Shown here: piece after piece, positions 15,670 through 18,502 of the stretch
Position numbering within the stretch: the stretch's first letter is position 1
Layout of the letters: every line of letters begins with the position of its first letter
Assembly: GCF_001458775.1 (NCBI RefSeq)
Contig: NZ_CZPZ01000012.1
Span: 186,001 to 250,000 of the forward strand
DNA length: 64,000 nucleotides
Direction: 5' to 3'
Source: Candidatus Nitrospira nitrificans
GTDB taxonomy: Bacteria > Nitrospirota > Nitrospiria > Nitrospirales > Nitrospiraceae
Made by a program: the position numbers and the translations under genes
The notes under the pieces: model-generated
Told to the model about the DNA's origin: nothing
The model's database searches: none
What the model saw: only the letters and a program-made list of their open reading frames with translations

Positions 15670-16005
15670 TCACAAACCGCGGACGCGAGGACGGCCCGGG
15701 TACGAGCCGATGGGACCCTGTTCTGGGCCGATCGCGGCCTCACAGGCATACCCCGCTTCGAAGGGCCAGAGCATCGAACGGCCGACGGCGGTGCCACGAA
15801 TGTGAATATATCGCAAGGTGACACCCATGCGGACGGCGTCGTCCTTTACCTTCTCAGTGCATTCACTTGGTGAGTAACCTCGACGCGAAATCAAGAGCGG
15901 CTCACCCGATGCGCTGAGGACGGAGAATTCGCTTGCGCATCCTGTCATCGAGAGCACGACGCACAGAACACCGCCAAGTCGACCGAGCACTCTTTTCCGA
16001 CTCAT
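15670..16005 (-). CDS. Small lipoprotein
   Basis: A 111-residue putative lipoprotein. The start at 16005 has GGGAG eight bases upstream and leads a signal peptide ending in VVLSMTGC, a reasonable lipobox. The mature part contains two further cysteines (SECTEKVKDDA and YACEAAIG) that may form a disulfide. A strand-rich middle (VTLRYIHIRGTAVG) is seen. No family recognised; probably anchored in the periplasm or outer membrane. Confidence 0.7.
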   Translation of the reverse strand: MSRKRVLGRLGGVLCVVLSMTGCASEFSVLSASGEPLLISRRGYSPSECTEKVKDDAVRMGVTLRYIHIRGTAVGRSMLWPFEAGYACEAAIGPEQGPIGSYPGRPRVRGL

Positions 16006-16156
16006 GTGAATCGCTCCCATGCAGCGGGTTTGTCCACGGGCGCACCGATTACATCACCTAAACCATAACACGAACACCCCCTCTCAATCGACTGAGCGAT
16101 ATCGCCTGAACAGCTCGGCGAAGATGACCGCGCGCGGTCTTCGAACATCGGCCGAA

Positions 16157-16634: not shown

Positions 16635-17864
16635 ATGGATGAAGTGGATCAGCTCACCGCTCTTTGGGAATGGCTCACTCGCGATGTCACGGTCGTCGGT
16701 GGGCTCCAGAGTCCCGCCCTTAGCTGGATCGGCGCTGCGGGGATCTTGACCCTGTGCATCTGGCATGGCGCAGTGCTTCTCAGGGGGTTGTTGCAAATCC
16801 AAGGGACGCTGGCGCGCTTTCACTCGTCTGTCGCGCCTCTGGTGCTGGCACGGCAACAGGTGTCGAAGGATTGGCTGGTTATCCCGGCGTTGGCAAAAAA
16901 ACGAGCGCGTCTTGATGTGTCGTCAGAAACGCGACGCGATCTTGACGATCTGCACGCATTGGATCGCGCGGTACGGTCGGAACAGGATTTTGCCAGAGAT
17001 TGGTTTTCATACCGCAAGACCCTCGCGGTAGAGCAGCCCGCCTGGTTCCTTGAGCCGACCGTCCATAGTCAGCGCGCGGCAAGTGAGTTTTTCTCGTTCG
17101 AATCTCTCTGCGCCGCCCATCTCAACGTCCGATTTTACCGACAACTTCCCGCCTTCATGACGGGCATGGGATTGATGTTCACCTTCCTGGCCATCTTGAT
17201 CGGCCTCAGCAAGCTCCATGCGAACGGGTCGGAGATCGATGGCATCCAAGGCCTGATCAACGGCCTCTCAGGAAAGTTTGTGACATCCATCGTCGGTTTG
17301 GCATGCGCCAATGCGTTCACCCTCCTCGAACATTCTTTCTGGCATCGGTTGGACAACCGACACCGGGAGTGCATTTCCCTCCTGGACGAAATGTTTCCGC
17401 AGAGGGCGACGGACCAACATTCCCCGGGGGCACCATCATCGAACGGATCTCCGGCGGCCCTCGTCGCTCCCATCCGACACGACACCGCGCATCAGCTGGT
17501 AGAGGTCGTGCAGCAGCGCCTCGGCTCAACCGTCGAAGCTCTGAACTCCGCCTCCAAGGCGCTCACGGCTTTGAATTCCAAACATTCACCGATGAAGCTC
17601 GATGATTTGCCCGTCGAGATCGGCCATGAGGTCCAGCGGGCATTAAGACCCATGATGAATCCCCTGCTGGAAGCCATTCACGCTCTCAACCGCTCGATGA
17701 AGGAGCGCGCCTCCCCGGTGCAGCTGTCTCAAGCCGAGATCGAAACGATGTTTCAGGATCTCAGAAACACGACCACGGTAACGACAGAACCTGCGCGTGT
17801 GGCGTCTAAAGATCGCCATTCAGGAAACCCATCTCAGCTACCTGAACGGGGACGGAGAGAATGA
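16635..17864 (+). CDS. ZorA/MotA/ExbB-like proton-channel protein
   Basis: A 409-residue inner-membrane protein of the MotA/TolQ/ExbB superfamily. Predicted membrane segments lie at about residues 29-53, 170-192 (MTGMGLMFTFLAILIGLSKL) and 212-234 (FVTSIVGLACANAFTLLEHS). The last two form the conserved MotA/ExbB core, with glycine and threonine positions typical of the channel. A large cytoplasmic loop (about 55-165) and a C-terminal helical tail (about 255-409) follow the pattern of ZorA from Zorya anti-phage systems, whose tail projects into the cytoplasm; here the tail is short. Its stop overlaps the start of the ZorB-like partner by four bases. A defence role is inference. Confidence 0.75.
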   Translation: MDEVDQLTALWEWLTRDVTVVGGLQSPALSWIGAAGILTLCIWHGAVLLRGLLQIQGTLARFHSSVAPLVLARQQVSKDWLVIPALAKKRARLDVSSETRRDLDDLHALDRAVRSEQDFARDWFSYRKTLAVEQPAWFLEPTVHSQRAASEFFSFESLCAAHLNVRFYRQLPAFMTGMGLMFTFLAILIGLSKLHANGSEIDGIQGLINGLSGKFVTSIVGLACANAFTLLEHSFWHRLDNRHRECISLLDEMFPQRATDQHSPGAPSSNGSPAALVAPIRHDTAHQLVEVVQQRLGSTVEALNSASKALTALNSKHSPMKLDDLPVEIGHEVQRALRPMMNPLLEAIHALNRSMKERASPVQLSQAEIETMFQDLRNTTTVTTEPARVASKDRHSGNPSQLPERGRRE

Positions 17865-18502
17865 AGGAGATGAAGTCGATGTTCGCACAGGACTCGCGCG
17901 ACGGCTCCGCCGTGGTGACAAGCGGGGTTGCCGATCTCATGACCTCGCTCGCCGTTATCTTCATTCTCTTGCTCGTGGCCTATATGACCCGCGTCGAGGG
18001 GGGAAATGCCGATCCGGCCAAGAGCCGTGGCACACCGACGGACATCACGCCGAGACGTGACCCCATTCACCCGCCACTGGAAGCCACAAGGCCGAATATC
18101 CACACGATCACGGTGCCGGATACGGCGATCAATTTTGAGTTTGGGAAGAGTACCTTGCTCCCTGCCGCCGACACGTTCTTGTCCGAGGCCATGCCGCACC
18201 ACGCCTCACTCATCTGCACGCCTGGAGAGCAAGAAGTGGAAGCCTTTGTGATCGAAGGTTACACCGACGATCTGGGTGACGATATACGAAATCTAAGACT
18301 CAGTCAGGAGCGCTCTTTTGCGGTACTGGCCAAAAGCTTGGAAGTGATCCGCGAGAAGCTTCCTTGGGCCTATGAGTGCTTCTTGCAGAAAGCCACCGCG
18401 AACGGGCGTGGAAAACAGAACCTTCTCCGCAATGATGCCGGACAGCCGGACCGCGATAAGAGTCGCCGCGTCATTTTCAAGATCCACATGCGCCCCACAT
18501 AG
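17861..18502 (+). CDS. ZorB/MotB-like stator protein with OmpA domain
   Basis: A 213-residue protein with one N-terminal membrane helix (about residues 24-43) and a C-terminal OmpA/MotB peptidoglycan-binding domain. Asp25 at the head of the helix (VADLMTSLAVIFILLLV) occupies the position of the proton-carrying aspartate of MotB and ZorB. The OmpA domain shows INFEFGKSTLLP, VIEGYTDDLGDDIRN, LRLSQERSFAVL and DKSRRVIFKI, preserving the aspartate and arginine that hold diaminopimelate. It is translationally coupled to the upstream channel gene. No flagellar, Tol or Exb genes and no zorC/zorD/zorE-like genes are adjacent. Confidence 0.78.
   Translation: MKEMKSMFAQDSRDGSAVVTSGVADLMTSLAVIFILLLVAYMTRVEGGNADPAKSRGTPTDITPRRDPIHPPLEATRPNIHTITVPDTAINFEFGKSTLLPAADTFLSEAMPHHASLICTPGEQEVEAFVIEGYTDDLGDDIRNLRLSQERSFAVLAKSLEVIREKLPWAYECFLQKATANGRGKQNLLRNDAGQPDRDKSRRVIFKIHMRPT

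Follow-up and report, generated by a model that had tools for sequence, protein, structure and literature searches.

A ZorA/ZorB-like gene pair in Candidatus Nitrospira nitrificans

The window analysed here is a stretch of 64,000 nucleotides of Candidatus Nitrospira nitrificans (contig NZ_CZPZ01000012.1, positions 186,001 to 250,000), and its subject is a pair of forward-strand genes whose products resemble ZorA and ZorB, the motor subunits of the anti-phage system Zorya. An earlier note, made from the sequence, had described them as two coupled genes for an orphan motor, comprising a channel subunit with a cytoplasmic helical tail and a MotB-like protein with a key aspartate (Asp25) and an OmpA domain. 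The two open reading frames are joined by an ATGA stop/start overlap, and the following features were assigned to them:

16635-17864, + strand: ZorA-like channel subunit, 409 aa (PADLOC ZorA1, E = 3.5e-18; top Foldseek matches 8qyd and 8vvn, type I ZorA)
16635-17399, + strand: ZorA motor part, residues 1-255, with long helices at 28-80, 165-196 and 204-253 and cytoplasmic beta hairpins (AlphaFold pLDDT mostly 80-95; invariant columns; dN/dS ~0.1)
17418-17861, + strand: shortened, proline-rich ZorA tail, residues 262-409, with two to three short low-confidence helices (pLDDT 32-74; 7.8% Pro; tail-length comparison; dN/dS ~0.3)
17861-18502, + strand: ZorB-like subunit, 213 aa (PADLOC ZorB1, E = 1.4e-31; type I and II ZorB in the PDB)
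17906-17995, + strand: ZorB transmembrane (TM) helix, residues 16-45, with invariant D25 (codon 17933-17935) in the motif GxxDLMTSLA (invariant columns; structure model)
18098-18490, + strand: ZorB OmpA-type peptidoglycan-binding domain, residues 80-210, with invariant D136, L147, R151, R202 and C119/C173 (Pfam OmpA; Foldseek OmpA/ZorB)

The best PADLOC profile for the 409-aa protein is ZorA1, which aligns to residues 91-259 over profile positions 49-222 of 663, that is, over the motor region only, while ZorB1 covers residues 14-211 of the 213-aa protein. The NCBIfam ZorA and ZorB models match the pair below their cut-offs (46.9 against 100 bits for ZorA). Pfam recognises OmpA in the ZorB-like protein (7.2e-8) and gives no MotA_ExbB (PF01618) match in the ZorA-like one. 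In a PDB search by sequence, the ZorA-like protein comes closest to type I ZorA, namely 8vvn (6e-9) together with 8qyd-type chains; the best entries for the ZorB-like protein, 8qyd_F and 8vvi, match weakly (1e-3). When the predicted ZorA structure was compared with Foldseek, type I ZorA structures ranked first (2.4e-7) and Tol/Exb proteins reached 5.6e-3 or worse. The description of a coupled ZorAB-like motor was thus borne out, and since orthologues with 30-89% identity occur in dozens of genomes and the motor part evolves with a dN/dS of ~0.1, a chance origin of the pair is excluded.

Motor and peptidoglycan-binding residues are kept and the ZorA tail is shortened

The ZorB-like protein is predicted to consist of the TM helix, a flexible linker (residues 46-75) and an OmpA-type domain resembling OmpA and ZorB in Foldseek. 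An alignment of 36 short-clade ZorB sequences shows that D25, the two arginines at the peptidoglycan site (R151 and R202) and both C119 and C173 are unchanged. The aspartate and the OmpA domain named in the earlier note are both present. The two cysteines also occur in the type I ZorB of one Zorya locus of the phylum (L050), and only the first in that of another (L109); a C119-C173 disulphide is possible, as a guess.

In the ZorA-like protein, AlphaFold models residues 1-80 and most of 100-260 with confidence, including two cytoplasmic beta hairpins, and T183, K214, T217 and S218 are invariant among orthologues. The tail is modelled poorly, with helices at 283-316, 322-358 and 366-382 (pLDDT ~57-74) and coil below 50. 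A cytoplasmic tail with helices, as the earlier note had it, does exist, but it is only ~150 residues long, its helices are of low confidence and it contains proline-rich disordered stretches, unlike the elongated rod of Zorya. Downstream of the channel motif, ZorA of the short clade has 166-243 residues, as opposed to 418-547 in type I Zorya of the same phylum, and proline makes up 7.8% of the tail of the window's protein versus ~1% or less in Zorya I. Judged from these lengths, the short clade has given up over half of the tail of ZorA. Defence by Zorya I and II requires the ZorA cytoplasmic extension, the peptidoglycan-binding domain and the ZorB Asp (PMC11890865). By sequence, two of these three features are kept in the pair, and the ZorA extension is largely lost.

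Trees place the short pairs within type I Zorya

In a tree of ZorA motor parts the short pairs join the type I ZorA of the phylum (support 97/96) and are separate from the TolQ, ExbB and MotA of the same genome; monophyly of the short clade is weak in this single-gene tree (69/59). The ZorB tree places the short pairs in one clade (98/96) that is joined with L050 and L109 at 100/98, and a concatenated ZorA+ZorB tree gives 98/99 for the short clade and 100/100 for its union with L050 and L109. With a branch length of 10, the ZorB of L108 looked artefactual and was excluded from the concatenation. Forcing type I Zorya into one clade that excludes the short pairs was rejected (AU test, p = 0.0009, with long branches present). 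The short pairs make up a single clade inside the type I Zorya motors, and in this clade the ion-pathway Asp and Ser/Thr and the peptidoglycan-binding residues are kept under purifying selection.

Zorya type I (E. coli 8qyd, Shewanella ANA-3 8vvn) is also the nearest system in structure, with the same motor fold, arrangement of TM helices and cytoplasmic beta hairpins, as well as the Asp and the OmpA domain of ZorB, whereas the clade of the window differs from it by a shorter proline-rich tail, by lacking ZorC and ZorD, and by being inherited vertically as a core gene pair. Zorya type II (S. kujiense 8vvi and L125-L127) has a ZorA of similar total length and the same ZorB fold; its channel helices lie near the N-terminus and are followed by a long coiled tail, and it carries ZorE, while in the window's pair ~165 residues of ZorA precede the second TM helix and ZorE is lacking.

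Distribution and selection

We surveyed Nitrospirota genomes together with named plasmid and phage collections. ZorB of the pair is found in 72 of 79 sampled Nitrospira genomes (46 of the 49 of high quality). The pair is mostly present in one copy per genome, with a further ZorB-like match in no more than two genomes. Of the 345 genomes sampled from the phylum, 80 match a profile of its ZorA at E <= 1e-108, and these fall within seven genera in two families of the order Nitrospirales; three further genomes, at 1e-37 to 1e-56, hold Zorya loci whose ZorA is long. The phage collections contained no relative of the short pair, and the plasmid collections yielded only true Zorya: matches in Prevotella and Nostoc plasmids, first taken for new variants, proved to be Zorya II with ZorE and a ZorC-bearing locus. 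Two Nitrospira genomes carry apparent remnants of a lost pair, both without ZorA: in G018 a ZorB remnant with two stops stands at the site next to rsmA (L047:9864-10172), and in G041 a decaying ZorB fragment lies at or near that site (L048:9383-9937).

The motor is under strong purifying selection, with dN/dS of ~0.09-0.14 for the ZorA motor part and 0.11-0.16 for ZorB, comparable to neighbouring pdxA (0.10-0.13) and rsmA (0.14-0.22); the ZorA tail is at 0.25-0.42. The pair is inherited vertically with the Nitrospirales chromosome.

Gene neighbourhoods and Zorya effectors

In the clade nearest to the window the arrangement is the same at all 31 loci examined: the pair has a divergent lipoprotein gene on its upstream side and a convergent rsmA on its downstream side, although in one (L032) the contig ends before rsmA. 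Across the order we distinguished about seven contexts, all housekeeping in kind, in which the 3' neighbour is often on the opposite strand. Besides rsmA these are rseP-proS-T2SSE ATPase with mltC (also seen in another genus, L088, where no mltC was detected), a MacB/FtsX-like permease with an MscS-like channel, a neighbourhood with PTPS and FGE-sulfatase genes, and VIT1, alcohol dehydrogenase and phosphatase neighbourhoods. A conserved third gene, which the earlier note had suggested looking for, was sought across these contexts, and none is common to them besides the pair; gene calls at the loci are mechanical and can miss overlapping genes, such as ZorB in L088 and L107.

As the earlier note had said, no Zorya effector adjoins the pair, either in the window or at the other loci. 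The ZorC and ZorD of a type I operon and the ZorE of type II are not among its neighbours. ZorC (PF15611) has no match in the window's genome and is present in 3 of 77 genomes of the genus; ZorE, an HNH nickase, has no match in the window's genome and only weak HNH-region matches in the genus; for ZorD the window's genome gives only generic SNF2 matches. The type III proteins ZorF (DUF3348) and ZorG are not adjacent either; a DUF3348 search of the genome was negative but its control gave no match, and no search was made for ZorG.

Complete Zorya does occur in the phylum, with ZorA-ZorB-ZorC-ZorD loci at L050, L109, L110, L111, L112 and L133 and loci with ZorA-, ZorB- and ZorE-sized genes at L125-L127. 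Four of them (L050, L111, L112 and L133) are genuine type I Zorya in three Nitrospira genomes, with ZorA of 609-666 aa, ZorB, ZorC and ZorD. Of the genomes with ZorC-bearing type I Zorya, two (G047 and G072) contain the short pair as well.

An SNF2 helicase of ~1,214 aa with a ZorD-like core (G000:C23:124723-125982) is encoded in many but not all Nitrospira. We rejected it as ZorD, because its match is confined to the generic SNF2 core and its distribution does not track that of the pair, many pair-bearing genomes being without it.

A candidate stand-alone motor for the cell envelope

To our knowledge ZorAB is known only within a defence system, and a literature search turned up no report of a stand-alone ZorAB motor in Nitrospira. 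Our best explanation, to which we give an even chance, is that the pair is a domesticated, effector-less motor derived from Zorya I that stands alone and is kept for an envelope function. Five ZorA subunits would surround two ZorB helices in a 5:2 assembly, cation flow past Asp25 would turn or reorient the ZorA ring, and ZorB would grip peptidoglycan once it is compressed or damaged. The output would be directed at the envelope rather than at DNA, either sensing or relieving cell-wall stress or doing envelope work through the short cytoplasmic region. Lacking the long rod as well as ZorC and ZorD or ZorE, the motor would no longer drive an attack on DNA in the known way. The label orphan, used in the earlier note, is apt in that effectors are not adjacent but too weak for an order-level, mostly single-copy and vertically inherited clade that is nested in type I Zorya and has a shortened tail. 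The simplest reading of the trees would be a single loss of effectors and rod by a type I Zorya motor in the Nitrospirales line.

Several points weigh against this explanation. The nesting in Zorya relies on a few type I sequences (two to four) whose branches are long, the precise sister group is poorly supported in the concatenated tree (51/12), and the direction of change, that is, effectors lost rather than gained twice, depends on the root. The ZorA profile survey was confined to Nitrospirota, and both the envelope role and the motor activity of the pair are inferred. Furthermore, many genera of the order are without the pair and it has been lost or has decayed in some Nitrospira; though widely retained, it is thus not essential.

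The earlier note had also considered a minimal defence motor or an effector encoded elsewhere. Both can be entertained but are less favoured, given that the window's genome has no ZorC, that ZorC is rare in the genus, and that selection and synteny are housekeeping-like. A minimal motor might defend by itself: upon phage injection ZorB would grip damaged peptidoglycan, the channel would open and the cell would be depolarised without any nuclease. The close kinship with type I Zorya, the retained peptidoglycan-binding residues and the proton-channel abortive-infection idea put forward for ZorAB (PMC8565338) speak for it, but the pair, in contrast to patchily distributed defence genes, belongs to the core, is inherited vertically, keeps its synteny and evolves under purifying selection, and we hold such a role to be unlikely. 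We are equally doubtful of a diverged effector acting from elsewhere in the genome. Our searches targeted known effectors and would miss a new one, and the SNF2 helicase with its ZorD-like core could be pointed to; against this stand the general nature of that match and its patchy co-occurrence with the pair, a genome without ZorC and ZorE, and the missing rod that known Zorya requires for defence.

That a flagellar stator, a Tol or Exb motor or a gliding motor has been misread as ZorAB is very improbable, even though MotA, TolQ and ExbB share ancestry with ZorA and all would belong to one superfamily of 5:2 ion-driven motors. The pair is distinct from MotAB, TolQR and ExbBD in profile, in fold score, where their matches are far weaker than those of ZorA, and in tree position: placement in a Tol or flagellar clade, which the earlier note had named as telling against its proposal, was not found. 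Neither a flagellar context nor TolA, TolB, Pal or TonB neighbours were seen, and no flagellar, Tol or Exb gene lies beside the pair in any context examined, in agreement with the earlier note. No gliding genes of the AglRS or GldLM type were recognised among annotated neighbours, gliding reference sequences not having been compared. In the window's genome these known jobs are covered by separate genes of their own: TolQRAB-Pal, two ExbBD-TonB sets and MotA. The two ExbBD-TonB sets are separate clusters of short ExbB (141-143 aa), ExbD and TonB-like genes (L131 on C23 and L132 on C32).

Current questions on ZorAB are how the motor is activated and what the tail does, and a natural, widespread ZorAB with motor and peptidoglycan grip but without rod or effectors separates those functions. 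Somewhat more tentatively than for the pair itself, we suggest that a whole bacterial order took over an anti-phage motor as a housekeeping ion-driven envelope machine, which would be the first ZorAB working without rod or any effector. If so, it would be a clear conversion from defence to housekeeping in important nitrifiers. In annotation, ZorA and ZorB by themselves do not imply a Zorya system.

Neighbouring cell-envelope genes

The lipoprotein gene divergent from the pair (window 15670-16020, - strand) is small, has no Pfam or PADLOC match and is conserved across the clade at the rsmA site; as it is conserved only there, we rejected it as a general partner. In one Nitrospira lineage a gene for an MltC-type lytic transglycosylase (L041:12366-13616) lies just upstream of the pair, a possible link to the cell wall.
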